From a virus, in IMG/VR virus record IMGVR_UViG_3300046006_002762, positions 1-35,770 of that record: a stretch of 35,770 nucleotides of DNA. One strand, written 5' to 3'. Both the position numbers and the translations under genes were made by a program. The notes under the pieces are model-generated. The model worked only from the letters and a program-made list of their open reading frames with translations. It was not told where the DNA came from and made no database searches. Shown here piece by piece: positions 2,865 to 19,575 of the stretch. The number at the start of each line of letters is the position of its first letter. Positions within the stretch are counted from its first letter, which is position 1.

Positions 2865-3683
2865 ATGTTAAAAAATAAAATAATTGAAGGAATTGACGAG
2901 GAAGGTGCTCCGGATGAGAAGTATTACGCTTTTGATTGGGACGATAATATAGTTTCAATGCCAACTAAAATAATCTTAAAAGATGAAGATGGTGATGAGG
3001 TTGGAATGTCAACTGAAGATTTCGCAACTTATCGAGAAATTATAGGTAAGGAACCATTTGAATTTGATAAACACACCATTGTTGGATTTTCAGAAGACCC
3101 TTTTAGATATTTCGGGGTTAAAGGTGATAAACAATTTATTGTTGATTCTATGTTAGCAAAACCGGGACCGGCTTGGGCTGATTTTGTTGAAGCAATTAAT
3201 AATGGGTCAATTTTTTCTATAGTTACTGCGAGAGGGCACACACCATCAGTATTAAAAGAGGCTTGTTATAATTATATTGTATCAAACCGTAATGGAATTA
3301 ATTCAACTGAGTTAGTTAAAAATTTAGAAAAATATAGAGATTTAGCTGATGAGGAAAATGTTTCTAAAAAGGAGATGATTAGAGAATATTTAGATTTATG
3401 TAAATTTTATCCTGTAAGTTATGGAGAAGGTTCCGCAACAAATCCGGAAGAAGGGAAAATTAAAGCTTTAAAAGAATTTGTTCAATATGTTAAAGCAATG
3501 TCTCAACATATTCAAAAAAAGGCGTTCTTAAAAAATAAAATAAATAATTATTTTGTTCCTAAAGTAGGTTTTTCAGATGACGACATAAAAAATGTGGATG
3601 TAGTAAAGAAACATTTTGAGCAAGACCCAGAAAATATTATTAAAACTTATTCAACAGCAGGAGGAATAAAAAAAGAATATTAA
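2865..3683 (+). CDS. HAD-superfamily hydrolase-like protein (probable phosphatase)
   Basis: A 272-residue protein with the four HAD signature motifs in order. Motif I is FDWDDN with nucleophile D24 and acid/base D26; motif II is the Thr of SIVTARG at T121; motif III is a Lys around K198-K200 (EEGKIKALKEF); motif IV is GFSDDDIKNV with D238-D240. The set is complete, so a metal-dependent phosphoryl-transfer enzyme is likely. Substrate is unknown; by analogy with T4 polynucleotide kinase it could be a nucleic-acid 3' end or nucleotide phosphatase, but no kinase domain is present. It sits between sheath and tube genes, where T4 has no such enzyme. No late-promoter-like element precedes it, and only a hairpin separates it from the sheath gene, so it is probably co-transcribed by read-through. 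Confidence 0.75.
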   Translation: MLKNKIIEGIDEEGAPDEKYYAFDWDDNIVSMPTKIILKDEDGDEVGMSTEDFATYREIIGKEPFEFDKHTIVGFSEDPFRYFGVKGDKQFIVDSMLAKPGPAWADFVEAINNGSIFSIVTARGHTPSVLKEACYNYIVSNRNGINSTELVKNLEKYRDLADEENVSKKEMIREYLDLCKFYPVSYGEGSATNPEEGKIKALKEFVQYVKAMSQHIQKKAFLKNKINNYFVPKVGFSDDDIKNVDVVKKHFEQDPENIIKTYSTAGGIKKEY

Positions 3684-3862: not shown

Positions 3863-4351
3863 ATGGCTGATTTATTAATGAAAATGCCCATACCTTACGA
3901 ACCTAAAAGACAAAATAGGTTTATACTACGTTTTCCTTCAACATTAGGAATTAATGAATGGTTCGTAGAATCGGCAGCAAGACCACATATAACAATTAAT
4001 CCGGTTGCAATTCCTTTCTTAAATACAGAAACATATGTTGCTGGTCGTTTTACTTGGGGAACAATTAACGTGAAATTCCGTGACCCAATCGGACCTTCAG
4101 CGTCACAAGCTCTTATGGAGTGGGTACGTTTATGTGCTGAATCAGTTACAGGTCGTATGGGATATGCTGCGGGATATAAGAAAAACATTGACCTTGAGAT
4201 GTTAGACCCAACAGGTGTTGTTGTGGAAAAATGGATATTAGAAGGTACTTTCTTATCTGATGTTAACTTTGATGGTTTAGGGTATAGTCAAGATGCTTTA
4301 GCAACTATTTCTACAACATTACGTATGGATAGATGTATATTAGTTTACTAA
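3863..4351 (+). CDS. Tail tube protein (T4 gp19-like)
   Basis: A 162-residue protein matching the T4 gp19 tail tube family in length (T4: 163) and pattern: N-terminal PYEPKRQNRFILRFP, then FVESAARPHITINPVAIPFLNTETYVAGRFTWGTINVKFRD, and a C-terminal EGTFLSDVNFDGLGYSQDALATISTTLRMDRCI. It stacks as hexameric rings forming the inner tube through which DNA passes. The start is set by the conserved N-terminus; the leader is A-rich with no Shine-Dalgarno. It is followed by an intrinsic terminator, so it probably forms its own transcript, as expected for a highly abundant virion protein. Confidence 0.93.
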   Translation: MADLLMKMPIPYEPKRQNRFILRFPSTLGINEWFVESAARPHITINPVAIPFLNTETYVAGRFTWGTINVKFRDPIGPSASQALMEWVRLCAESVTGRMGYAAGYKKNIDLEMLDPTGVVVEKWILEGTFLSDVNFDGLGYSQDALATISTTLRMDRCILVY

Positions 4352-4465: not shown

Positions 4466-5221
4466 ATGGATGAGAGTTTAATTAATGCAGGAACAGAAAA
4501 TTTCACATTACCACATGATGTGGTATCATTACCTAGTGGTGGAATTTTTTATAAATCTAAAAGAAAATCGGTTAAAATCGGTTACTTAACAGCGTCTGAT
4601 GAAAATTATTTAATTGGTGCGCTAGCGGGTAAAGAAAATGTAGTATTAACTTTATTACGTAATAAATTATATGAACATGATTTACGTCCTGAAGAACTAC
4701 TTGATGGTGATGTTGAAGCTATTTTGATATTTTTAAGAAATACTTCATTTGGTGCTGAATACACAGTTAATTTAACTGACCCACAAACTAACAAATTATT
4801 TGCTCATACTGTTATATTGGATGAGTTAAATATTAAAAAAAACCAAAATCAACCGGATGAAAATGGATTTTTCTTAACTAAATTACCTAAAACAGGTATT
4901 ACTGTTAAATTAAGACCAACAACTTTCTATGATACTATTGAGTTAGATAAAATGGTTGAACAATATCCTGCTGGAAGACAGGCACCAAGAATTACTTGGA
5001 AATTACAAAAACAAATTGTTGAAATTGATGGGGATAACGATAGAGGTAAAATAGCTATGTTTGTTGATACTTTACCTATTATGGACTCTAAATACATAAG
5101 AACTTTTTTAAGGGAGAATGAACCGTCATTGGACCTTAAGAGAACAGCAAACGCCCCGTCAGGAGAACTGGTATCTTTCGAGATAACCTTTGGGGTGGAG
5201 TTTTTTCGGCCTTTCTTTTAA
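4466..5221 (+). CDS. Baseplate / tail assembly chaperone-like protein (T4 gp26 family)
   Basis: A 251-residue protein resembling the T4 gp26-type baseplate family: near the N-terminus VSLPSGGIFYKSKRKSVKIGYLTASDENYL, then RPEELLDGDVEAILIFLRNTSFGAEYTV, and near the C-terminus SKYIRTFLRENEPSLDLKR. The family's usual CxxC pair is absent (LTDPQTNKLF in its place). It lies directly upstream of the tape measure gene, the slot used in long-tailed phages by tail assembly chaperones made as short and frameshifted forms. Its last 35 bases overlap another open frame (from 5187), and the overlap contains GAG TTT TTT CGG, a good +1 slip site, so a 298-residue longer product is likely. The region 5130-5230 is visibly richer in G/C than the rest of the gene, consistent with extra coding or RNA constraint. 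Confidence 0.75.
   Translation: MDESLINAGTENFTLPHDVVSLPSGGIFYKSKRKSVKIGYLTASDENYLIGALAGKENVVLTLLRNKLYEHDLRPEELLDGDVEAILIFLRNTSFGAEYTVNLTDPQTNKLFAHTVILDELNIKKNQNQPDENGFFLTKLPKTGITVKLRPTTFYDTIELDKMVEQYPAGRQAPRITWKLQKQIVEIDGDNDRGKIAMFVDTLPIMDSKYIRTFLRENEPSLDLKRTANAPSGELVSFEITFGVEFFRPFF
5201..5209 (+). other. Putative programmed frameshift site (+1, or -2)
   Basis: In the 0 frame the codons are TTT TTT CGG at 5201-5209. tRNA-Phe on the second TTT (5204-5206) can move forward one base onto TTC (5205-5207), a better match to its GAA anticodon, while CGG, a codon that appears infrequent here, waits in the A site. The same UUU-CG logic is used at the influenza PA-X +1 site. A purine-rich GGGGTGGAG (5192-5200) sits just upstream, like the stimulatory sequence in bacterial prfB. 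A -2 slip TTT to TTT reaches the same frame. Inferred from sequence only. Confidence 0.6.
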
Positions 5222-5363
5222 CTATCGGCAACTTCTAATTGAGGAATATTACTTGATGGCTAAATTTATAAGGACTTCTTATAATGATTTCAACGAGATG
5301 CCCACTTATGTTAGAAAATTTTTAATAAACAGAATAATAGAAGATAATACACCAAAGACGTAA
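5208..5363 (+). CDS. C-terminal extension of the gp26-like protein, expressed by frameshift (alternatively a separate 35 aa ORF from ATG 5256)
   Basis: This frame is open from 5187 to the stop at 5361-5363. Read from the slip site it encodes 51 residues: GLSFNYRQLLIEEYYLMAKF, IRTSYNDFNEMPTYVRKFLI, then NRIIEDNTPKT. The pattern L-EE-YYL-(8)-SY-D--EMP-Y-R---IN is one I associate with short tail assembly proteins of T4-like phages. An internal ATG at 5256 would give only 35 residues and would cut off the conserved YRQLLIEEYYL part, which argues for entry from upstream by frameshift. Joined to residues 1-247 of the gp26-like protein it gives a 298-residue fusion. The final codons form one arm of a 14-bp hairpin. 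It stands 45 bases before the tape measure gene. Confidence 0.6.
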   Translation, partial: GLSFNYRQLLIEEYYLMAKFIRTSYNDFNEMPTYVRKFLINRIIEDNTPKT

Positions 5364-5387
5364 ATTAAAATATGTCTTTGGTGTATT
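5346..5387 (+). terminator. Long stem-loop at end of frameshift ORF
   Basis: Perfect 14-bp stem (5346-5359 with 5374-5387; core ACACCAAAGAC / GTCTTTGGTGT) with a 14-base AT-rich loop. The left arm is the last codons of the frameshift ORF. No T run follows; instead a late-promoter-like element starts at once. Confidence 0.65.
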
Positions 5388-7341: not shown

Positions 7342-10300
7342 ATGGCAGAGAGTTCATTATCATTTGCGTCCACGTCTTCCTTTAGAAATTCTCTAATGGC
7401 GAAAAACTTGGCACCTTATAGTGTTCAAGGAGTGTACACCCCACCGGCAAATCAAGTTAATTACGAAACCATTTTAGGTGTAAGTAATGTTATTGATTCA
7501 CCAGGTGAGTTAATAACGAATGACCCATATGGTAATTTATTATATCCATTGAACGAATATGGTCCTAATGGTGGTTATAATTTAGAAATTAATTTTAACG
7601 GACCTCCTTTACCTGTTAATTCAAATCAGGGGGAATATAACCCCAACGACACAGCGTTAGATTTACTTAATGAATTTTTTATTGATGCTGCTTATATTCA
7701 AAATGGGTATGGACCGGCGGGTGGTTATAATGATTTAGTTATTATAACAGATGTTGAAAATAACAATAAGATATATCAACCTTATTGGGAACCACCAAGT
7801 TTTGCTCCATCAACTTATTCACCTTATAATATTTTATTATCAAATAATCCTATTGGAAGTAATGGGTTACTATCTCAGGATTCTTTTATTGCGAGATTTG
7901 GAGCTCTTGAATTAAATTCGTTATTGAAAAAAAGAATTGATGCTGAATTATTTCAAAACACATTAGGTCAAATAAATTTACAATCTCTACAAGACCCGTT
8001 TGAGATTAGTATGATGTTGTCAGGTCAACAACCTTTAATTTATAAAAATTGGAAGATTACAGTACCTGAAAACCCTGTTGTTGCCGCTGCCGACTTCTTA
8101 ACAAGATTGGCGGGAGCTTATTGGCCGGTTTCATTAATACCTGGAGATTATTTCAATGATAATAACGAAAATAGTCAAACACAACAAACATCAAACGCTT
8201 TAAGTACTGTTAATCAATTAACAGGTGGTTTATTAGGTCCAATATTAAATCTTAGTAGAAGTGGTTCACAAATATTTTTAGCCAATACAGGTAATGGTCA
8301 AAGGTCTGTTTTATTTGCAAATATTAATTATAATAGATATCAACCATCTTATGATAAAGATTATGGTTTATTATTTGGGGTTGCTCAAGGATTAGTTAAC
8401 TTATTAGTCCCAAATATTAATCCGGGTAATGGTACATTAGTTGGTGGTTACTATGTTGGTAATAAAACATCGGAACCGTCTTATATTACATCACCCCCAA
8501 ATCAAATACCGGTTAACGCATTTGGTCAACAAGACCCTTCACCTGTATATGGTCCATCAGAGATGGGTATTTTATATGAAGGTAATGAATCAACACTTAA
8601 CAATTTTGGTTTAGGAGGTAAGTCCTATAGTGACGGTGGGGGTATTGACGGAGGATTTGTTTGGGTATCTCCAAAATATAAAGCCAATGCAGGATTCAGA
8701 GCGATACCGGGTGGTGGTTCCGGAACTATGGATGAGGACTATCAATTGGTTAGTGGAAACATCACTAGAGATGAATCAACAAACATTGAATTTAAATCAA
8801 CATCAATATTAGACCAAACTCAAAGATTAATTGATTCTGCGGATAATGTTACGGGTATTGCTCGATTGAAACACGTTGGTAACGCAATGAATCAGATTAG
8901 TAAGGTATTCAATGATGGTTATAAAGAAATTACTAAAGGTTCTCAAGTTTTATCGTATACTGATAATACAACAGGTGGGGCTGCCGGTATTGAATATTGT
9001 AGAGTTTTCACAAAAGATAATCCTTATTACGCGTATAATGATTTACAAAAAACAGATGGTATAACTACATCAGGTAGAAGATTTACTCATTCTGTTTTGG
9101 ATAACACATATAATTTGAATATTGCTCCATTAAGAAATCCGGGCTCAACAAACATTATTGCGAATAATGTTAATGGAACGGGGGGATATGCTAAAAAATA
9201 TATGTTCTCAATTGAGAATTTAGCTTGGAGAACATCAAGTAGACCTGGTTTTACTTATGATGAATTACCTGTTTGTGAGAAAGGTCCAAATGGTGGTAGA
9301 GTTATGTGGTTTCCTCCGTATGATTTAAAGTTTTCAGATAGTAGTACTGCTAATTGGAATGATACTTCTTTCTTAGGTAGACCTGAACCAATTTACACAT
9401 ATAAAAATACAAGTAGAACAGGGAGTTTAAGTTGGAAGATTATAGTTGATAGTCCATCTGTAATGAATGCTGTTGTGGAAAAACAATTAAAAGGACAAAA
9501 TAAAGAAAGGATTAATTCAATTATTGATTCATTTTTTGCTGGTTGTGTTAAGTATGATATTTATGAATTGGCGTTAAAATTTAATACTATACCAACAAAG
9601 GATTTATATACGTATCAAGAGATTTTAAGTAAACCAAATTTAACGGATGAAGAATTAAAAAGTGTAAGTGCTAGTATTCCAAGAGAAAATTCTGTAACTC
9701 AAGGAGGTGCGGGAACGCCTGGTGATGCAACAAATAGTACGACAAATCCGGATACTTCAATTGACGATTTCAAAAAGAATTATTCTCAGTTAGCATTTTA
9801 TTTTGATAATGATATTCCTGACCCAAACTCAAAAGGTGTTGTTTCTTCAGTGCCATATGATGTCACGTATTCGTCATATACTAGTGTTGGAAATAAAAAA
9901 ACATATGTTGATACCGCAAGTGCAATTTTTAATGTTGGTGTTACTAATAGAAATGTTGGTGAGTTCTTTACAAATATTGTTGAATCTAATTATAAAAAAA
10001 TTGCTCTTAATGATAATAATTTTATAAAAGACGCTTACAATATTCTAAAAGAAAAAAAGGGGACTATAAGTATTCAAATGGTTGGTTCGGCATCAGCAAC
10101 TGCCAGTGTCCCGTATAATGAAAATCTTTCTAAACGAAGAAATGATTCTGTTATTCAATTCTTAAAGGAGTATAGTATTGGAGATGTTAATTTGGCTCCT
10201 TTCTTTGAAAATCAAACCTTACAAATTACACTACAAAGTGGTAAGGGTGAACAAATTTCTATACCTCAAGGTGAGTCAGGTACTGGAACACAAGTTGACT

Positions 10301-12357
10301 GTAGTAAAAATGTTGTATCATCATCGGGTACAGATGTTTCTAACAAAAAAGCTGAGACATATTCAACAGATGCTATGGCATGTAGAAGAGTTAAAATTAA
10401 TAGTATTGCAATTGCACCAATTGCTCCAACAACTATAGTAAAACCACCTGAAAAAGTGGAAATAATAACACCTGATGTGACCAATACAACAATTAATACG
10501 ATTAAACCTGTTCAGACAGTTACAATTGAACAAAAATTAAAAGAAGGTATTGGGAAAAGAATTATTAGACAATTATTAACTGAATGTGACTATTTTGATG
10601 TTATTAAAGAAACTAATCCTATGGTATATGGGTCTATAGCGGATAAAATTAAATTTTTCAATCCCGCTTTTCACTCCATGACACCTGAAGGTTTAAATTC
10701 TAGACTTACATTTTTAAATCAATGTGTTAGACCTGGTGAAACAATTCCTGTAATAGGTGCGGACGGTAAACCAAAATATAATGATGCGGTTAATACTTCA
10801 TTTGGTGCACCACCGGTATTAGTATTGAGAATTGGGGATTTCTATAACGGAAAAATAATTCCAAAAACAATATCATTTACATATGAACCATTATTGTTGG
10901 ATATGAATCCGGAAGGAATTGGTATTCAACCGATGTTAGCTAACGTAAATTTAAGTTTTGATATGATTGGTGGTATGGGGCTTGCTAGACCTGTTGAACA
11001 ATTACAAAACGCGCTGTCATTTAATTTTTACGCAAATACTGAAATTTATGACGAAAGAGCAACATGGACAGAAGATACTTCAGCGTTAGATACTACATTA
11101 ATCCAATCAATATTAAATGCTCAACCACCGGTTACTGTTAATAATGTTCAAAATGAAATTACTAATGATGGTGGAAATACTATTGGTGACATATTAACTA
11201 ACATTCCGGTTACTAGTGGTCAAACAGGGGAAATTACCTATATGAGTATTATGGATAAAATATTAGATGCTACGAAAGAATATTATACAAATGTTTTAAA
11301 TCAAAGTGATAGTATTGTTAAATCATACAATTATGGTGTGTGGCAATTAATAACTCAGGATAGATTGTATACTTCGGGAGAAATAAGTTTAAATTCTAGT
11401 AGTATATTAGCTCCAATTTATGGAAAACCGGAAGGTGTTGAAACTAAAGTGGATTCATTATTTAGTACATTTATATCAGATATTAATGCTGATAATCCAA
11501 CTAATCAAAATTATATAATATCAAGATTAGTGGGTTATAAATTTACAGATGCAACAATTCAACGAGTTAAAACAAATATGAATCAATATATTACCACATT
11601 AAAAGGGGATTATAGTAGTGGTTTATTCACTAAAATTCAAGAAATTGTAATATTAGAACAAAGTATGGTTCAAATTATTAGAAAAATAAATTTAGTAACA
11701 ACTAAAACGGATGGTAAAATTTTAGACACCGGGATTCCTCGTGTTTATACTATTTCAGGTACAACCGAAGTTAATACCGCTAGTCTTGGGTCTCCATTAG
11801 ACACATATCAAGAATTGTGTGATGACTATCGTTTAGTTGGTATTAGATTAGACGATTTTAATGTGTTAATGGATGCTGAAAAAATAATTACAACAGTTAC
11901 TGTACCATATGAAGGTCCTGGTGAATTTGAACCAATTTCAAAAGATTTTGCAACAGCGTCAGTTCAGGATAAAAGACAATTTATGGTAATGGCTCAAATA
12001 TTTAATGATAAAAATAAATTAACACAATTTAAGAATGCTATTATTAGTGGAGAATTAAAAAGTGATAATAAATTAGTTAGAAAATTTAATAATATTTGTG
12101 ATGATTTTGCCGATTTAACTAAAAAAGAATTAATTGCTGAAGAAAAATTTATTAAAACAATTAAAGGAAAAGAATCTTATTTAAAATTTGTAAATCAACC
12201 GGCTTATCCTAAAGGTAAATTGAGAAAGTTTACTTATACTACGGTTCCTGACCCTGCAACTGAAACACAACAAAAAACAGATATTGCTAATTTATATAAA
12301 ACTGTAAATGTTAATAATGATAAATTAACGTTTGATGGTAAAATAAAATTTGATTAA
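7342..12357 (+). CDS. Large baseplate protein with embedded OmpA-like domain (tube-initiator / gp48-gp54 position)
   Basis: A 1671-residue multidomain virion protein. Residues ~1-600 are Asn/Gly/Pro/Tyr-rich and unrecognised. Residues ~620-760 (YMFSIENLAWR, GPNGGRVMWFPPYDLKF, SFLGRPEPIYTY, SLSWKIIVDSPSV) and ~1080-1260 (FGAPPVLVLRIGDFYNGKII, PEGIGIQPMLANVNLSFDMI) look like two parts of one baseplate/tube-initiator body. Between them, ~815-975, lies an OmpA/MotB C-terminal-like domain: LAFYFDNDIP, then ISIQMVGSASATASVPYNENLSKRRNDSVIQFL, the usual 'G-AS-----N--LS--R---V---L' signature of peptidoglycan-binding domains. The last ~400 residues are helical. It follows the tape measure gene and precedes a LysM protein and the hub, the place of T4 gp48/gp54. 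Role inferred from context; whether the OmpA-like domain still binds peptidoglycan is unknown. Confidence 0.7.
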   Translation: MAESSLSFASTSSFRNSLMAKNLAPYSVQGVYTPPANQVNYETILGVSNVIDSPGELITNDPYGNLLYPLNEYGPNGGYNLEINFNGPPLPVNSNQGEYNPNDTALDLLNEFFIDAAYIQNGYGPAGGYNDLVIITDVENNNKIYQPYWEPPSFAPSTYSPYNILLSNNPIGSNGLLSQDSFIARFGALELNSLLKKRIDAELFQNTLGQINLQSLQDPFEISMMLSGQQPLIYKNWKITVPENPVVAAADFLTRLAGAYWPVSLIPGDYFNDNNENSQTQQTSNALSTVNQLTGGLLGPILNLSRSGSQIFLANTGNGQRSVLFANINYNRYQPSYDKDYGLLFGVAQGLVNLLVPNINPGNGTLVGGYYVGNKTSEPSYITSPPNQIPVNAFGQQDPSPVYGPSEMGILYEGNESTLNNFGLGGKSYSDGGGIDGGFVWVSPKYKANAGFRAIPGGGSGTMDEDYQLVSGNITRDESTNIEFKSTSILDQTQRLIDSADNVTGIARLKHVGNAMNQISKVFNDGYKEITKGSQVLSYTDNTTGGAAGIEYCRVFTKDNPYYAYNDLQKTDGITTSGRRFTHSVLDNTYNLNIAPLRNPGSTNIIANNVNGTGGYAKKYMFSIENLAWRTSSRPGFTYDELPVCEKGPNGGRVMWFPPYDLKFSDSSTANWNDTSFLGRPEPIYTYKNTSRTGSLSWKIIVDSPSVMNAVVEKQLKGQNKERINSIIDSFFAGCVKYDIYELALKFNTIPTKDLYTYQEILSKPNLTDEELKSVSASIPRENSVTQGGAGTPGDATNSTTNPDTSIDDFKKNYSQLAFYFDNDIPDPNSKGVVSSVPYDVTYSSYTSVGNKKTYVDTASAIFNVGVTNRNVGEFFTNIVESNYKKIALNDNNFIKDAYNILKEKKGTISIQMVGSASATASVPYNENLSKRRNDSVIQFLKEYSIGDVNLAPFFENQTLQITLQSGKGEQISIPQGESGTGTQVDCSKNVVSSSGTDVSNKKAETYSTDAMACRRVKINSIAIAPIAPTTIVKPPEKVEIITPDVTNTTINTIKPVQTVTIEQKLKEGIGKRIIRQLLTECDYFDVIKETNPMVYGSIADKIKFFNPAFHSMTPEGLNSRLTFLNQCVRPGETIPVIGADGKPKYNDAVNTSFGAPPVLVLRIGDFYNGKIIPKTISFTYEPLLLDMNPEGIGIQPMLANVNLSFDMIGGMGLARPVEQLQNALSFNFYANTEIYDERATWTEDTSALDTTLIQSILNAQPPVTVNNVQNEITNDGGNTIGDILTNIPVTSGQTGEITYMSIMDKILDATKEYYTNVLNQSDSIVKSYNYGVWQLITQDRLYTSGEISLNSSSILAPIYGKPEGVETKVDSLFSTFISDINADNPTNQNYIISRLVGYKFTDATIQRVKTNMNQYITTLKGDYSSGLFTKIQEIVILEQSMVQIIRKINLVTTKTDGKILDTGIPRVYTISGTTEVNTASLGSPLDTYQELCDDYRLVGIRLDDFNVLMDAEKIITTVTVPYEGPGEFEPISKDFATASVQDKRQFMVMAQIFNDKNKLTQFKNAIISGELKSDNKLVRKFNNICDDFADLTKKELIAEEKFIKTIKGKESYLKFVNQPAYPKGKLRKFTYTTVPDPATETQQKTDIANLYKTVNVNNDKLTFDGKIKFD

Positions 12358-12359
12358 TT

Positions 12360-12686
12360 ATGGGTACTAAAGATTATTATAATAGATACAATAATTTTAT
12401 CGTTAATGGACAACAAACGGTTGTACCATATATTGCTCTGCCAAGTAAATCTACAGACAAAAGATATATTTTTAAAGTCGCTCAATCTAGATTAGATAAA
12501 GTTTCTCAACAATATTATGGTAGTCCTTTCTTTAGTTGGTTAATATTACAAGCAAATCCACTATATGCTGGTCAAGAGTGGAATATCCCCGATGGGGCTA
12601 TCTTGACAATACCCTATCCTTTAATAGCTTCTTTACAGGATTACAACAATGACCTAGAAAATTACTTCTTTTATTATGGTAGATAA
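12360..12686 (+). CDS. LysM-type baseplate protein (gp53-like)
   Basis: A 108-residue protein. The order IALPSKSTDKRYIFKV, RLDKVSQQYYGSPFFSWLIL, QANPLYAGQEWNIPDGAILTIPYPL is a LysM-like fold (a 'D--S--YYG-P--W--I--AN' helix pair closed by an 'IP-G--L-IP' strand), as in T4 gp53 and the small gpX-type tail proteins of other contractile systems. In the mature particle such proteins clamp wedges or hub near the tube; the LysM fold usually serves protein packing here. It starts two bases after the stop of the preceding gene and overlaps the next gene by 11 bases, so the three are translationally coupled. T4 gp53 is longer (196), so this is a minimal version. Confidence 0.78.
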   Translation: MGTKDYYNRYNNFIVNGQQTVVPYIALPSKSTDKRYIFKVAQSRLDKVSQQYYGSPFFSWLILQANPLYAGQEWNIPDGAILTIPYPLIASLQDYNNDLENYFFYYGR

Positions 12687-15600
12687 ATCGGAAAATATAT
12701 TAGTTGAGTTTGATTATAATAACATATCAATCATTGACCCAAATAAAGTTATAGATAATGACGGAAAAGTACAAGAACGATATGTTAAGCAGGAAAATTT
12801 AGTAATGTACGCTAATTTGGAGTGTAAAGTTTTACCTCGTACCAAATTAGCACTTGGTGTTGCAAATAACGACCAAGTACAAACAGTTTCAATAGCCACT
12901 ATTAATTTTTTAAAACCGGGAGATAAAACATTTTTAGATAATTCATATACAGATGAATTAACGGGTAAAGATACAATAAAAGGTAATGGTGTGAATCAAC
13001 CAAAACTAACGGCTGTCTCAAACCCAAATAAAAGTAGTGATTTTTACATTAGACAAACCATTAATTCAGGTGGTAAACAAGCCTCAGTTGATAATGGATT
13101 GTTGGGTATTACATCAATTAATATTAGACAAGGGTTAGATTTTTTACCTTCAATTACTATTGAATTAGAAGATGTTAAAGGTAGAGCTATGTTTGAGGCG
13201 GGTGATAATTCACCATACGCCGCATTTTTTAATTTACCATATCCAATGTTTCAATTAACAATAAAAGGGTTTTATGGTAAAGCGGTTAAATTAAAATTAA
13301 TGTTACAAACATTTTCAACTAGATATGACACATCTAATGGAAATTTTAAAATTAAATTACAATTTTTTACTTACAAATATACATTGTTAAGTGAGGTACC
13401 TATGGCGGCATTAATTGCGGTTCCACACATGTACCAATCTAGGGTTAATATACAAACAGTTAAAGGAGGTTCTAGCAATTTTTCAAACGTCCAAGATTCT
13501 ATTGTTTCAAGAGGATATCAAAAAGTTAGAGAGTTATATAGTGAATATAAATCAAAAGGTATGATACCTGATGATTTCCCTGAAATTACTGTTGTTCAAA
13601 TGAAAAATAGGATTGAAAATTTTATTAAAAATATTTTAACTTCATTTTCGCAACAAAATTTAGACCCATTAACTTATGTTGAAGAATATCAAAGATTATT
13701 GGGTAATTTAGATAAAGATGTTTATGTTGGTGCTGGAACTTCATGGTTTTCTAAATATATGGATGATAAAAATTATTTAGTAATGAAAGGTGTTAATGGT
13801 GTTAATGGAATTACTGAAGGTAGTAAGGTTTATACTTTTAAATCTGAAATAAATACAGCTCAAAAAAGAAAAAATGCTTTGGCGGAACTTCAAGGTATTA
13901 TCAGTGCGGCAAAAGAAAAAATGGAGGCAAATTCTGTTTGCGGTGAAAATGGTAAATATACTATTGATGGTAAAACAAAAACTGGTTCACATGTACCATT
14001 TAAGATTGACCCAAGTATATTTCCTATTGAACCAAAAGAAAATGATGTTAATGTTAAAGAAACTTATCGTCAAAGAAAAAAATTATCAACAGAGCCAAAC
14101 GCGGACCAACTTAAACAATTTAAAAATCAACTAGCAACCGAAGGAATTTTTAATTCATTAGAGATAACTAATAAGAAAGGTTCTGAAGATAAAAACTTCC
14201 AATTTTATATATTTGAGGGTGATAATAGGTTTGAAGATTTAATAAACCAAATGGGTAAATTAGCTAAAACAACTAAAGAAAATATTCAAGATGAATTAAC
14301 AGAAGCTTTAACTAATTTATTACAAAAAAAAGATAATGGTATTGGATTTGTTCCAAATATTAGAAATGTTCTTGCGGTTATTTTTGCTAATGGTGAGGCA
14401 TTCCTAAGATTAATGGATGATGTTCATGTACAAGCTTGGAATTTAAATGATACTCAAATTAAAGCCAGAAGAAATTCAATTTTAAATCCTGAAACAGCAA
14501 ACGCTTCTGTTGATAATTTAACATCAGGTGATAATAAAACATTACCAATTTATCCGTGGCCTCAAATGTTGACAGCAACTTCAGGTAAAGATGGTCGTGA
14601 AAAATTTGAATTAACATATCCGGGAGATAAGAATGTTATAAGTCAAACTAAAGCGTATTTAACTGATTTATGGCCTGAAGTTGAATTTGTTGAAGAATTT
14701 ATTAGAGCAACAACTCAAACAGTAAAACCGCCGGCTGACCCGACAGAAACCTCAAATCCTGTGACCGACATTCAAAGAGTTTCGTTAGATGCAATTGAAT
14801 TTCCAATTAGTAATGCTGTTTATGATAATAAAGAAGAAATTAAATATTTTTATGAAATATTTGAAAGAATATTTTTAACATCTAACTACTCAGGTTTATT
14901 AAGAAGTAATGGTAATACTCAGGATGCGGATAAAGTAACTGACGTTATTGCTGAAGCAGAAAGTATTAACATTATTCAAAGTTTATCAAATGATAATCCT
15001 TTTATTATTAAAAAATTAAAAGAGTTTGGTATTAATGCGGGTAATTTTGAAATTTTGATGAGACATATCTCAAATGATGGGACAGGTGAAAGTTGGCAGA
15101 ATTTTATTAGAGGTATCTTTAATACATCATATATTAAAAACAAAGTTAATAATTCTAGTTTTGAATTTTTAAGTCAAAATTTGTTAAATGACTCTAAATC
15201 ACAACCATTAGTTTCTTTACCGGGTGAAAAAAATATTGATGATTTTATATCAAATTCAACATCAAGTAATATTTTTAATTTAACTGACACATATCCATTT
15301 ACAAATTTCGCTTGGGTTAAAAGTGAGTTAGCAAACGGTAATTCAATTTCAGATGTTAAATCGTCTTATAATACAACAAAAGTATTAACATATAATAGTA
15401 ATAAAAAAATAATATCTAATTTTTTAGATATTACTAATGATGATAATAGAAGACCTTTTACTAACTTTTTATTTAATAATATTAAATCCCCAATTTATTA
15501 TTTTGATTTAAAATTATTTTATGAAAATAGAAGTTTTGATTCTCAATTACCGACAGAAGGTAATTTAAGATATTTAAATTATTCAGGATTGGTGTCAAGT

Positions 15601-18600
15601 AACCAAACTGTGTCAATGTTAAACACTCCATATTTTACTAATTCAATTCAAGAAGGTGTTAAAAATTTTAGAAATGGGAGTGAATATCCATTTGTGGCGT
15701 CAGCTTATTTGTTTTTAAATAGTTTACCATTATCAACGCTTAGAGAAAAGTACAAAACTTATGAGACAAATTCCGTAACGGATTTAGACTATATTTTTGC
15801 AACGCTTAAAAAATTTGGTGCGGTACATAAATTACCATATGCTTGGATATTAAAAATTGGTTCTGTTTGGAACCGATATAAAAATTTTGTTGAGACAGGT
15901 GTTGATATTATTGATACATCGTGGTCCGGATTTAGTTATGTGCATAATTATGACCCTGTTACAAATTCTGCATCTAGAAATTATGGGTTAACAATTAACG
16001 GAGCTCAAATGGATATTGTATTAGAAAAAAATACAACATTAGGTCTTGAGACATCATCATTAATGAATACCGGATTTTACCCATTATTAATTAATGATTT
16101 TAATGTGTTTTATCAAGGGTTCCAAATTTATTCAGGTTATACCGATACCGATATTCAAAATGGGTTTAGTTCAGGTGTTACATTAAATTATGTACCTGAA
16201 GCGATTATTAATATGCCAGAAGGGTTTGACCCGAATAATCCAAAAAGAGATTTAAGGGTTATTCCCTGGTCAGTTTATATTACAACATTAGATAAAACTT
16301 CATCATATATTGTGCCATCTCAAGGGGCGTTAATTAATCAAACTAGTAATGAATGTATTACTGAGGAAACAAATCAATTAAAATATGAGATAACTGGAAA
16401 TACGGCAATGTATAATGGTTCTGTTAGATTATTTTGGTCGGCACCTAACTATGGGTATTTTGATATTACTAAAGTTGTAAAACCAACACCTCTAAAATAT
16501 TTAAAACAAGTTTTTAATCTTACCGGAAATACTAAACAAGAAAATTTTTCTATTAATGGAAAACAAGATGATTACACAGAAATTAGTGAAATGTTCTCAG
16601 TATTTGAAAAAGAAATTTTAGATAGTTTTGAGTCAGAATTTTTAAATTTTTCAAAATCAATTTATGATTTTGATAGTGAGTTTATATCAAACAGTGATAC
16701 AGAAAGTACAAAATCCTTTAAGAATTTTCAAATGTTAATGAGAAATTTAATGAAAATACCTAAAATAACTGGTACGACAATAAATACTGAATTAGTTTCG
16801 GCTGTCCAAGAATCTCAATTAACTGTTTTATCTAACCTTTTACAATCATTTTTAAATTATGACGTGGTTTTTAAATATGGTAATCCGGCAAGTTTTGATA
16901 AAAGATTATTTTATACTTTTTCAAATGGGTTGATTGCTGACCCATATACGTGGAGTAAATACTCATTTCAAATACCAACTCCATTGCCGACATCAGGAGG
17001 TACAGTTACACTATCTCAATCTATTACTAACTATCCAAACGAATGGAAGGCGTTACAATTATATGTAGGGTTTTCAGAGATACCTCAATTACGTTATAGT
17101 AATAATGGTTCTTATATAACTGATTTCTTTGTTGATTGTAATATAGATTTTAGTGTTGATAATATTAAAACTTTTGCACCAATTATTAAAATTTATGCAA
17201 CTCAAAAATTAAATGATAATACTTTAACATATAATAAATTTGTTAAATTAATGAATGAGTATATTGCGAGTACGGATAAATTTCAAAGTATTATTATTAA
17301 TAAATTAATGCCTAAATTACAAAAACAATTACCGGATGTTGGTAGTACACCAGACGCTGTTTTGGCAACAGCTTTAGAAGGTCCTCAAACAAAATTAGAA
17401 TATTGGGAATCATTTAAAGCATTAAATGATAAATGGATTGCGGGAAATGATTTTAAAACTAAGACACTTTTTGAAGATATTTTATTGATGGATAGAGCAA
17501 ATAGAAATATTGGGGATAAAGTGTTAGTAGATATTCATAAATTGAAAAAAACGTTGACAAATATAAATCCTAAAACAAGTATGTTGATTTTTGTCCAAGA
17601 TATTTTAGTAACAAATAATTTTGTTGTGATGAATATACCGTCTTATGTTAATTTTTATAATGTACAAGATGCGGTTAAAAATCCTGTGCCAAAACCGGAA
17701 GGGACTATTGATTTTGCGAATACAATGTTTGGAACATTTTTAAATGTTGATTATAGAAATTCTTCGGCTAAAATGGTTTGTTTTTATGCTGGAAAACCAA
17801 GTGAACAACCGGATTTTAAAAATAATGCTAACGTAAGATTTAAAGGGGATTCCTTTGATTTAAGAAGAGCGAGTGATAATCCATTAATTGAAGACCAAAT
17901 AGGTAAACAAGATTGGGATAAATCTAATAAAGTTGTTGGGTTTAATGTTGATGTGGGACCACAAAATCAATCAATTTTTCATGGGTTCCAAATAGACCAA
18001 AGTGCGGGGCAAGCAACTGCTGAGTCATTACAACAAACAGATGAATTAGTTAAACAATCATCAGGTAAAGCGGCTGGTACTCAAAATGTTTCATTATATA
18101 ACTTATACAAAAATAGAAGTTATGCTTGTACTGTATCTATGATGGGTAATGCAATGATTCAACCAACAATGTATTTTAATTTAAGACATGTACCAATGTT
18201 TAGTGGGGCATATATGATTCAGGAAGTTAATCATAGTATTGGACCGGGAACATTTGAAACGGTATTTAAAGGTATTAGACAATCAATTTCAAATTTACCT
18301 GAAATAGATAGTTACATCCAAACATTAAAAACTAATTTATTAACGTCTATTATTGAGAAAAACAAACAAGATAAACAAGCGGCAATAAAAGAAAGTGGGT
18401 CTAAACAACAAAACGTTATTAGTCAATCTAATAATACTGTTACAGATGCAACTAAAAAACCCGCTAATAGTTCAAGTAATTATCCAAGTTGTACACCGTT
18501 AAAAAATTATGAAAAATATCAAAATATAACACCTTCTACAAACAAGGCTAAATATAAAGACGCTATTAGTACAATCATTAGTCAAACAGCTGACCAAAAA

Positions 18601-19575
18601 TTGAGATATTTAATTTTTACGGCAATTTATTTAGGTTCGTCAAATGGAACAATATTAGAAACAAATCAACATAATTATTCAGGAATTGATTTATTACAAA
18701 ATTGGGGTCAATCTGGTGTTTCTTATTTTGAAAATTTATATTATTGTAATTCTAATAATATTCCATATGCTAGCTTTTCGGATTTGCCAAAACATATTGA
18801 ATTTTTAATTTCTAGATGGAAAGATAGAGTCGGTCAATTACCAGCAATCACGGCTAAAGATATTGCTAAGTTTTATACTTTGTATTTTTCAGCAAATGCT
18901 AAAAATATTGATGTTTATAATAAATTATCTCAAAATCCAAGTCAATTAAGTGAAATTGAGGTTAGTGTTCAACAATCAATTGACCTATTTAAAACCGGTA
19001 GTGGAAATGTAAGTGGTACACCACCACCTAACACACCACCACAAGGACAAACAAACCAAGTTATTTTTGAAAATAGTTTCGCTTTTAGTACTTATTATTT
19101 ACAAAATTTAAAAATTAATAGCGGCGGGGCGTTAACGGGTGATTTTCTTGTTTTAAACAACGGTGCTTTATTAACACAAGACTATAATGCTAAAATATAT
19201 TTGGCGTCACAAATGTCAGATATATTAATTGCTAATTTTACTATAAAAGAAAAAACTAATAGAGGTTCATTTGTGAGTTCACCTGATTTTATTGAGGCTT
19301 TGGAGTTGGCTAGAAACCGACAAACATACGAAGTAGGTTTTAGAGTTAGGGTTGACGCTTTCCCAAATATTATATTTGGAAACAAGGACTTTGTAAAAGT
19401 GGTTATGCCATTGGATTGTCCTGAAGAAGGACTCAACTATCGTGAAATAATTGGAACATATGATTGGAAGGCAATTAAAGATAATATTTGTTGTAAATGT
19501 TATGGTAAACCATATACAGGTATGGAAATTGTTTGGGATGGAAAACCGTGTTCAAGAAACGGAACAACATGTTAA
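12676..19575 (+). CDS. Giant baseplate hub protein (gp27-like) with probable murein-hydrolase-like domain
   Basis: A 2299-residue protein. The N-terminal part (~130-250: GITSINIRQGLDFLPSITIE, AAFFNLPYPMFQLTIKGFYGKAVKLKLML) has the hub beta-barrel pattern of T4 gp27. A matching late segment (~1810-1870: SYACTVSMMGNAMIQPTMYF, then MFSGAYMIQEVNHSIGPGTFET) is typical of gp27/gpD/VgrG-type hubs, so about 1550 residues of largely unrecognised sequence are inserted between the two hub parts. Residues ~1955-2110 (AISTIISQTADQKLRYLIFT, ETNQHNYSGIDLLQNWG, LPKHIEFLISRWKDRV) resemble glycoside-hydrolase or lysozyme-like domains of tail proteins; by analogy with T4 gp5 they may cut the wall. A Pro-rich linker follows (~2115-2130), then a beta-rich end with five Cys in the last ~32 residues (CCKC, then two more). 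No catalytic residues could be fixed by eye. Confidence 0.72.
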   Translation: MVDKSENILVEFDYNNISIIDPNKVIDNDGKVQERYVKQENLVMYANLECKVLPRTKLALGVANNDQVQTVSIATINFLKPGDKTFLDNSYTDELTGKDTIKGNGVNQPKLTAVSNPNKSSDFYIRQTINSGGKQASVDNGLLGITSINIRQGLDFLPSITIELEDVKGRAMFEAGDNSPYAAFFNLPYPMFQLTIKGFYGKAVKLKLMLQTFSTRYDTSNGNFKIKLQFFTYKYTLLSEVPMAALIAVPHMYQSRVNIQTVKGGSSNFSNVQDSIVSRGYQKVRELYSEYKSKGMIPDDFPEITVVQMKNRIENFIKNILTSFSQQNLDPLTYVEEYQRLLGNLDKDVYVGAGTSWFSKYMDDKNYLVMKGVNGVNGITEGSKVYTFKSEINTAQKRKNALAELQGIISAAKEKMEANSVCGENGKYTIDGKTKTGSHVPFKIDPSIFPIEPKENDVNVKETYRQRKKLSTEPNADQLKQFKNQLATEGIFNSLEITNKKGSEDKNFQFYIFEGDNRFEDLINQMGKLAKTTKENIQDELTEALTNLLQKKDNGIGFVPNIRNVLAVIFANGEAFLRLMDDVHVQAWNLNDTQIKARRNSILNPETANASVDNLTSGDNKTLPIYPWPQMLTATSGKDGREKFELTYPGDKNVISQTKAYLTDLWPEVEFVEEFIRATTQTVKPPADPTETSNPVTDIQRVSLDAIEFPISNAVYDNKEEIKYFYEIFERIFLTSNYSGLLRSNGNTQDADKVTDVIAEAESINIIQSLSNDNPFIIKKLKEFGINAGNFEILMRHISNDGTGESWQNFIRGIFNTSYIKNKVNNSSFEFLSQNLLNDSKSQPLVSLPGEKNIDDFISNSTSSNIFNLTDTYPFTNFAWVKSELANGNSISDVKSSYNTTKVLTYNSNKKIISNFLDITNDDNRRPFTNFLFNNIKSPIYYFDLKLFYENRSFDSQLPTEGNLRYLNYSGLVSSNQTVSMLNTPYFTNSIQEGVKNFRNGSEYPFVASAYLFLNSLPLSTLREKYKTYETNSVTDLDYIFATLKKFGAVHKLPYAWILKIGSVWNRYKNFVETGVDIIDTSWSGFSYVHNYDPVTNSASRNYGLTINGAQMDIVLEKNTTLGLETSSLMNTGFYPLLINDFNVFYQGFQIYSGYTDTDIQNGFSSGVTLNYVPEAIINMPEGFDPNNPKRDLRVIPWSVYITTLDKTSSYIVPSQGALINQTSNECITEETNQLKYEITGNTAMYNGSVRLFWSAPNYGYFDITKVVKPTPLKYLKQVFNLTGNTKQENFSINGKQDDYTEISEMFSVFEKEILDSFESEFLNFSKSIYDFDSEFISNSDTESTKSFKNFQMLMRNLMKIPKITGTTINTELVSAVQESQLTVLSNLLQSFLNYDVVFKYGNPASFDKRLFYTFSNGLIADPYTWSKYSFQIPTPLPTSGGTVTLSQSITNYPNEWKALQLYVGFSEIPQLRYSNNGSYITDFFVDCNIDFSVDNIKTFAPIIKIYATQKLNDNTLTYNKFVKLMNEYIASTDKFQSIIINKLMPKLQKQLPDVGSTPDAVLATALEGPQTKLEYWESFKALNDKWIAGNDFKTKTLFEDILLMDRANRNIGDKVLVDIHKLKKTLTNINPKTSMLIFVQDILVTNNFVVMNIPSYVNFYNVQDAVKNPVPKPEGTIDFANTMFGTFLNVDYRNSSAKMVCFYAGKPSEQPDFKNNANVRFKGDSFDLRRASDNPLIEDQIGKQDWDKSNKVVGFNVDVGPQNQSIFHGFQIDQSAGQATAESLQQTDELVKQSSGKAAGTQNVSLYNLYKNRSYACTVSMMGNAMIQPTMYFNLRHVPMFSGAYMIQEVNHSIGPGTFETVFKGIRQSISNLPEIDSYIQTLKTNLLTSIIEKNKQDKQAAIKESGSKQQNVISQSNNTVTDATKKPANSSSNYPSCTPLKNYEKYQNITPSTNKAKYKDAISTIISQTADQKLRYLIFTAIYLGSSNGTILETNQHNYSGIDLLQNWGQSGVSYFENLYYCNSNNIPYASFSDLPKHIEFLISRWKDRVGQLPAITAKDIAKFYTLYFSANAKNIDVYNKLSQNPSQLSEIEVSVQQSIDLFKTGSGNVSGTPPPNTPPQGQTNQVIFENSFAFSTYYLQNLKINSGGALTGDFLVLNNGALLTQDYNAKIYLASQMSDILIANFTIKEKTNRGSFVSSPDFIEALELARNRQTYEVGFRVRVDAFPNIIFGNKDFVKVVMPLDCPEEGLNYREIIGTYDWKAIKDNICCKCYGKPYTGMEIVWDGKPCSRNGTTC

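Follow-up and report, generated by a model that had tools for sequence, protein, structure and literature searches.

How can a protein acquire a C-terminal domain that is encoded in another reading frame, past a conserved stop codon? This question is raised by a locus in a virus record of 35.8 kb (31.5% GC; the whole stretch is called the window below), whose gene set is that of a T4-like phage, with sheath and tube genes, a PF12322 protein, a UvsX-like recombinase, a DnaB-like helicase, ribonucleotide reductase and wedge proteins. An earlier note on this DNA had proposed that a gp26-like frame is joined, by a programmed +1 (or -2) shift, to an overlapping frame just before the tape measure gene; an ORF check confirmed the coordinates of both frames (Table 1), and translation confirmed a shifted product of 298 residues instead of 251. 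In our reading the locus very probably encodes a T4-type tail assembly chaperone (TAC), whose short and long forms are predicted, from sequence comparison and structure modelling, to arise by programmed +1 frameshifting at UUU_CGG. Conservation, frame, selection and predicted fold were computed directly; the occurrence, +1 direction and frequency of the shift, the role of an upstream hairpin and the function of the products are what we infer.

Gene context and probable chaperone identity

The gp26-like ORF sits between the tail tube gene and an ORF in the tape-measure position. The latter had no confident family match in profile searches and takes its label from position alone, as in the records of phages immuto and LIS04. 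Between the extension and this ORF, a very stable, terminator-like hairpin is found at 5349-5384 (z -8.4), its 5' arm being the end of the extension and its loop side carrying the extension stop. The string TATTTATA occurs close upstream of several gene starts (4415, 4442, 5388, 7319, 28883, 28910), possibly as a late promoter; its total count in the window, 10, is at chance level. Further downstream, the ORF at 7342-12357 (1671 aa) has no confident PHROGs match (best E 0.73), and that at 12676-19575 (2299 aa) has none at 0.01. No phage-encoded tRNAs were found within the window, which is a fragment, and no homologue turned up in a pattern scan of cellular genomes.

Table 1. Features of the chaperone locus, in window coordinates
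Feature	Position	Strand	Basis or remark
Tail tube ORF	3863-4351		upstream of gp26-like ORF; phrog_4542
gp26-like ORF, 251 aa, likely short form (TAC-N) of T4-type tail assembly chaperone	4466-5221	+	PF12322, phrog_150, fold match
Predicted fusion TAC-NC, 298 aa, one base skipped at shift site	4466-5363	+	translation; AlphaFold2
GCCCC, possible outer stem with GGGG 5192-5195	5153-5157	+	weak
SD-like GGAGA	5162-5166	+	conserved in 44 representatives; GGAG there in 48/56 of second set
Candidate 5' RNA hairpin GGTATCT-TTCG-AGATAACC	5170-5188	+	15 nt from P-site codon; putative role
+1 reading frame; post-shift residues form C-terminal extension (TAC-C)	5187-5363	+	stop 5361-5363
TTG in extension frame, possible internal start (rival)	5190-5192	+	TTG in 45/56 of second set
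Shift site TTT_TTT_C	5201-5207	+	P-site TTT 5204-5206 would slip +1 to TTC 5205-5207
CGG, putative waiting A-site Arg codon	5207-5209	+	rare-codon counts; CGN conservation
Zero-frame stop TAA ending short form	5219-5221	+	conserved stop
Tape measure ORF, 631 aa	5409-7304	+	directly downstream of extension; ORF call

The gp26-like ORF matches PF12322 (T4_baseplate) with 36.0 bits (E 7.5e-9), above the curated cut-off of 24.5, and phrog_150 with an E of 1e-10; T4 gp26 and T4 gp51 score 215.6 and 177.5 bits against PF12322. An AlphaFold2 model of the 298-aa fusion, built from a 31-row alignment (pLDDT 87.1, pTM 0.81), predicts the extension as three helices (253-268, 272-277 and 280-294; block pLDDT 86-95). 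Among the viral models that it matched, the named top rows were mostly gp26-type hub or baseplate proteins (SP-15, E 3e-17), and many rows carried no name. Foldseek gave no match in the PDB at E <= 0.001, and a sequence search of solved structures returned chance-level matches only (best E 0.21). Re-ranking of solved chains by VIA-align placed the HK97 tail assembly chaperone (2ob9) on top, with a weak Z of 6.0 over model residues 133-221 (79 aligned, rmsd 3.2), values below 8 being such as can reflect a common arrangement; the second chain, YqbN (3klu, Z 5.5), is presumably a prophage TAC, and the next, unrelated, reached 3.4. This ranking of a predicted model backs the chaperone reading without proving it. 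The fusion of a gp26-like protein with a chaperone-like extension, as first proposed, is best amended in one respect: the fusion itself is supported, and the gp26-like part is likely to be the chaperone (TAC-N), not a hub protein to which a chaperone is attached.

Extension frame, proposed shift site and rare codon

Close relatives comprised 127 IMG/VR loci of 65-100% identity, some near-identical, with a readable gene end in 125. In the analysis as a whole, seven loci without a readable gene end were dropped, and extension counts omit loci with less than 150 nt downstream. A second set of 57 loci was assembled around the divergent member L134, partly from the same contigs; one of these was too short. 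Three remote groups, of the immuto (F), SP-15 (S) and Atu_ph07/RaK2 (J) types, are presented in the last section. The zero-frame stop is TAA, TGA or TAG in 115, 5 and 5 of the 125 relatives. Past it, the +1 frame provides an extension of at least 30 aa in 124/124 testable relatives and the -1 frame in none of the 124; after clustering at <85% nucleotide identity the counts are 26/26 and 0/26, and shuffled window-type gene ends are open in 7% of cases per frame. The openness of the extension frame exceeds chance. By length count, the second set has the +1 extension in 55/56 loci and the -1 in none; L402 lacks the extension, and the extension-length frame of L404 is unrelated. Control genes gave, by cluster, open frames past the stop in 1/43 (+1) and 2/43 (-1) for the ORF at 2865-3683, and in 2/100 and 7/100 for the sheath gene. 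The values for the tail-tube gene, which weigh against the reading, are high (open for at least 30 codons in 30/126 and 17/126 clusters), its +1 openness being above the 6-12% shuffle rate computed for gp26 ends.

Selection acts on the same frame: over the extension, pN/pS is 0.30 (bootstrap 0.22-0.38) in 44 representatives, as opposed to 0.92 and 1.35 in the other two frames, which have stops in 44/44. The conserved extension peptide opens right at the zero-frame stop, mostly with N[YH][RK]Q, a position that bears on how its translation begins. Re-initiation after the gp26 stop could use ATG 5256, the first ATG of the extension frame and present in the window and its close relatives, or another downstream start; this reading is hardly credible, as more distant relatives have other codons in place of that ATG and the conserved peptide starts upstream of it. 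From the opening of the extension frame to 10 codons past the stop, ATG is absent in 113/124 window-type loci and in 61/78 (F), 23/29 (S) and 69/78 (J) loci of the remote groups. The earlier note had described the extension as having no good start of its own: no group has a conserved ATG, and the extension is not found as a gene with its own conserved start, which bears the description out for ATG, and one start-like codon, TTG 5190-5192, stands against it.

The string TTTTTTCGG at 5201-5209 is a plausible slip site. TTT_C is found at -15 from the stop in 125/125 relatives and TTTTTTC in 124/125, and the codon that follows is CGN in 124 (CGG 90, CGC 20, CGA 11, CGT 3), the sole exception, L048, having CTC. 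The sequence features of a UUU_CGN +1 site (P-site UUU, a following C, A-site CGN and a continuing +1 ORF) are present, in support of the proposed move from TTT to TTC while CGG waits. In the second set, TTTTTTC stands at the standard place in 48/56 loci; in L396/L400/L402-type loci it lies one codon farther from the stop. Two natural variants, L127 (TTC TTT CGC) and L048 (TTT TTT CTC), both keep the +1 extension. The shift site is a family trait.

The A-site codon is exceptional within the window: among the 9,663 codons of 15 ORFs (at least 200 aa each), CGG stands at 5207 and nowhere else, and CGC is absent; the shift site is likewise the sole in-frame TTT_CGN among the 10,307 codons of 20 ORFs (at least 100 aa each). 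Outside the gene end, 28 representatives have three CGG and no CGC among 1,171 Arg codons, and these two codons occupy 110/125 shift sites, a signal that is partly confounded, since the third base of CGN doubles as the middle base of a codon in the +1 frame (for Gly, Ala, Asp or Val). The check that the earlier note had asked for, namely whether the overlap and TTTTTTCGG are conserved with suppressed synonymous change, gave a positive outcome: in the same 28 representatives, which include L047 despite its one-base frame problem, the last three 11-codon windows of gp26 show synonymous differences at 0.33-0.37 of the expected level, the remaining windows lying at 0.56-1.49, and 13 of the 21 codons from 237 to 257 have none. 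The two slip codons are fixed and the last Phe codon, outside the slip, is free (16 TTC, 12 TTT). Part of this constraint reflects dual coding, because zero-frame third bases are +1-frame second bases; it also reaches some 50 nt upstream of the slip site, into sequence where frameshifting requires no +1 reading.

In the mechanism proposed here, most ribosomes would terminate at 5219 and release the short form, and a minority would pause with peptidyl-tRNA-Phe on UUU 5204-5206, since the phage hardly ever uses the codon that follows, CGG. The tRNA may then re-pair on UUC one base forward, after which translation would continue in the +1 frame as far as 5363 and add the three-helix domain, yielding the long form. 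If lambda G/GT is a guide, the role expected of the short form is to coat the tape measure protein, and that of the long form to recruit tube subunits.

Two other routes into the extension frame would use the same string. A shift of -2 reaches this frame with a fusion one residue longer; T6 would allow re-pairing, and a -2 shift is known for phage Mu (in a passage of PMC3498833). The -2 route is nonetheless improbable: the T run is broken in L127 (TTC TTT CGC), in group F (TTT CTT TGG) and in group S (TTC TTT CGT), and the TTT_C or CTT_T for a +1 move is kept. It is re-pairing, as read from these sequences, that argues for +1 rather than -2. The T6 homopolymer could also point to transcriptional slippage or to a sequencing or assembly error, a base error at T6 being named in the earlier note as something that would simply fuse the frames. 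A base error is very unlikely because the shift string recurs in 124/125 records, and slippage because loci with a broken T run (L127, the CTT_TGG loci, TTC TTT CGT) keep the extension; taken together, these artefactual or transcriptional origins are highly improbable, and translational +1 frameshifting is retained as the preferred reading.

Candidate upstream hairpin and possible internal initiation

Upstream of the slip site, a candidate RNA hairpin (Table 1) is the best fold of its 21-nt stretch in 44/44 representatives, with a mean MFE of -3.35 versus -1.30 in synonymous shuffles; taken one by one, only 32% of the representatives rank within the top 5% of their own shuffles. Divergent members carry matched changes in the two arms (such as GGTAACT/AGATTACC, GGTAATAT/ATATTGCC and GGTTACGTT/AACGTATCC), and these paired changes are better evidence for the hairpin than shuffle statistics. 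Both the synonymous-shuffle z and the alifold z ignore shared ancestry; the scan gave z values of -19.9 and -18.9 around the slip site, and large values elsewhere (-8.5 at -84..-60 and +6.6 at -57..-33 from the P-site codon). Longer single folds often prefer other pairings to the 5170-5188 hairpin, the single folds of the upstream stretch of the window do not exceed dinucleotide shuffles in stability (z -0.8 and -0.2), and those of four stretches around the shift site have z from -0.8 to 0.1. A distance of 15 nt from the P-site codon is about where mRNA leaves the ribosome, so that refolding of the hairpin could push the ribosome forward and thereby favour forward slippage. In the bypassing of T4 gene 60, a 5' stem-loop has a forward-pushing role.

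An outer stem is less clear: GCCCC and GGGG are both present in 125/125 relatives, with ACCCC in some members of the second set, and the pair -67/-22 is standard in 35/44 representatives versus 28 expected (78/125 of all loci), a weak signal. The purine-rich GGGGTGGAG next to the site, to which attention had been drawn earlier, is present in the window and varies among relatives (GGGGTTGAG, GTGGAC, GTGGAA), and is therefore unlikely to be an essential SD-type stimulator. RF2-like SD stimulation was rejected, GGAG adjoining the site not being conserved (GTTGAG, GTGGAC, GTGGAA). A downstream stimulatory structure was likewise rejected, alifold giving 0.0 for 0..+90 and +30..+120, as was a strong-looking hairpin over the slip site (-6.4 to -9.8 kcal/mol among the folds listed), which would be inside the ribosome at decoding. 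Alifold windows that include the gene end contain a weak 6-bp stem (-2.9 kcal/mol versus about 0 in column shuffles), in which the last two gp26 codons (-6..-1) pair with +22..+27 and which is built from conserved Phe and Glu codons.

The same upstream elements admit another explanation, the main rival, in which the extension is a separate 57-aa protein initiated within the gp26 gene at TTG 5190, with GGAGA as ribosome-binding site acting over the hairpin. In the window subfamily, GGAGA, the place of the hairpin and TTTGGGG hardly vary, synonymous positions included (TTTGGGG being found in the 44 representatives except where the preceding codon varies); the TTG, which lies upstream of the shift, is kept in window-type relatives, and 0/124 loci of the subfamily are without a start-like codon upstream in the extension frame. 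Spacing would suit initiation, GGAGA standing about 5 nt from the TTG once the hairpin is looped out, and in T4 gene 38 a hairpin brings the ribosome-binding site near the start. Among extension loci of homologues of the same gene pair, however, 22/78 (F), 9/29 (S) and 39/78 (J) are devoid of ATG, GTG and TTG over the interval that runs from the opening of the frame to the tenth codon after the stop. In L393, TTC GGG abolishes the TTG and TTTTTTCGT stays, though an ATG lies upstream in the +1 frame of this locus. The possible GCCCC/GGGG stem would moreover cover the TTG, and the near-unique codon that follows TTT in the window is left unexplained. Internal initiation as the source of the extension is thus unlikely; it could operate together with +1 frameshifting in the window branch.

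Distant relatives and known frameshift systems

Nineteen distant records were picked from tblastn matches to cover different phages. The +1 design is found in five with 25-30% identity to the window protein, namely Flavobacterium immuto (CTT_TGG), Streptococcus GXN1 (TTT_CGT), Bacillus SP-15 (TTT_CAC), Listeria LIS04 (TTT_AGT, with a less evident P-site fit) and the uncultured LR756508 (TTT_CTA), and in a sixth, Microcystis Mel-JY01 (TTT_TGG). Thirteen others (Atu_ph07, PA5oct, RAS14, LR756511, Phosso, Vibrio 2.275, Munch, CBB, 121Q, RaK2, SCTP-2, S-RIM8 and C48C1) have the extension in -1, at T_TTT_TTC or T_TTT_TTT. No joined gene is marked in the annotation tables of the distant records examined; in the annotated records examined the extension either appears as a short ORF of its own, labelled hypothetical or, in cyanophages, 'hub assembly catalyst', or is left unannotated.

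Among the best 80 IMG/VR matches of the F and of the J type, the extension is in +1 in 78/78 loci of group F (sites TTT_TGG 57, CTT_TGG 16, other 6 of 79) and in -1 in 78/78 of group J (T_TTT_TTC in 76/79); in group S it is in +1 in 29/32, with L266-L268 having it in -1, with TTT TTC or TTT TTT strings in the -1 register. By cluster, the group's own direction is found in 65/65 (F), 24/27 (S) and 52/52 (J) clusters; past the stop, the opposite frame stays open in 9/65, 4/27 and 3/52, against shuffle rates of 9%, 6% and 12%. Six SP-15-type loci (L253, L256, L257, L258, L262, L263) have CCC_AGT instead of TTT_CGT, another plausible +1 site. In group F, many of the 40 loci listed (e.g. L154) carry GGAGG about 30 nt upstream and, immediately ahead of the slip site, a CCC-AATT-GGG-like hairpin.

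In T4, 26 and 51 are two separate genes, gp51 being longer at its C-terminus. Profiles of the extensions link several groups: W-S (W being the window type) 95%, F-J 93%, F-S 90%, S-cyano 89%, S-J 75%, W-F 60% and W-J 45%, with T4 gp51 joined to cyanophages at 96% and to J at 73%; overall, 9/15 group pairs score 45-96% and 6/15 at most 7%. The S profile omits L248, L249 and L266-L268, and the T4 and cyanophage profiles hold five and two sequences. The window-type profile failed to match the T4 gp51 C-terminus directly (0.09%), and scored 0.08% against cyanophages; its extension is therefore tied to T4 gp51 through intermediates only. The profile phrog_634, 'baseplate hub assembly catalyst', matches both T4 gp51 147-246 (1.2e-23) and the -1 extension of S-RIM8 (1.6e-29). 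A 2010 genome comparison states, in a passage of PMC3037559, that cyanophage gp51 has about 20% of the length of other gp51 proteins and corresponds to the C-terminal part only, which a -1 extension of gp26 would explain.

Within this family, the T6C string stands in the TTT_TTT_C register in +1 loci and as T_TTT_TTC in -1 loci. It is possible, if doubtful, that the problem of making a short and a long form was solved by forward slippage, backward slippage and duplication, that a register change of T6C switches direction while keeping both proteins, and that the shift in the window branch is driven by the rarest Arg codon together with a hairpin folding behind the ribosome. The present reading would place T4 gp26/gp51 in a family in which frameshift designs are widespread and vary in direction by lineage, would make T4 tail biogenesis comparable with that of lambda, and would offer a natural series for how shift sites change direction. 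It would also carry into bacteria the UUU_CGN motif, otherwise met only in eukaryotic viruses in the portions of literature consulted here, and suggests that a C-terminal chaperone domain has been missed or misnamed in annotation.

Vladimirov, Gautam and Davidson reportedly described, in 2022 (Virology 566:9), the TACs of T4-like phages as gp26/gp51, with frameshifting in several T4-like groups; frameshifting in T4-like chaperones as such is thus already known. Portions of the literature describe separate short and long chaperone genes in some T4-like phages (PMC10885494) and poly-T signals that serve -1 shifts in T4-like TAC-N genes (PMC12846349). A 2010 review, in the part seen of PMC3004832, calls gp26 and gp51 hub assembly chaperones, with gp51 'of unknown function', and a 2016 review (an excerpt of PMC5009743) presents T4 as an exception to otherwise widespread G-T frameshifting. 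The window shares with gp26/gp51 the family PF12322 and, by prediction, the short and long forms, whereas its predicted shift is +1 at UUU_CGG and theirs is -1 or replaced by two genes. Among the literature matches listed, most subscription papers lying outside that scope, no +1 or UUU_CGN case was found in phage chaperones.

In other phages, excerpts of PMC5009743 and PMC3498833 give -1 for lambda G/GT, P2 and other TACs, -2 for Mu and a 'very likely' +1 for HSTV-2. These systems resemble the window in having the chaperone just upstream of the tape measure gene and a low-copy long form made by frameshifting, and differ from it in their shift sites. The canonical -1 pattern X_XXY_YYZ does not apply in the window type, where T6C has the register TTT_TTT_C and the -1 frame is open for at least 30 aa in 0/124 loci. 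The prfB gene of RF2 has the +1 site CUU_UGA (in a passage of PMC10885494), and CUU_UGG or UUU_UGG in group F would be the same kind of P-site slip, with a sense codon in place of the stop; the window type departs from the RF2 type in having no conserved SD 3 nt upstream and a sense codon, CGN, in the A-site. Influenza A PA-X and plant amalgaviruses provide a further parallel in their UUU_CGN +1 sites (passages of PMC5052127 and PMC3498833), where the shift string is identical and tRNA-Phe is thought to move from UUU to UUC while a rare Arg codon waits. Those are eukaryotic RNA viruses, whereas the window belongs to a bacterial DNA phage with a candidate 5' hairpin. Against this background we count as new the predicted +1 shift at UUU_CGN, UUU_UGG or CUU_UGG, the rare codon at the site and the change of direction within one family.
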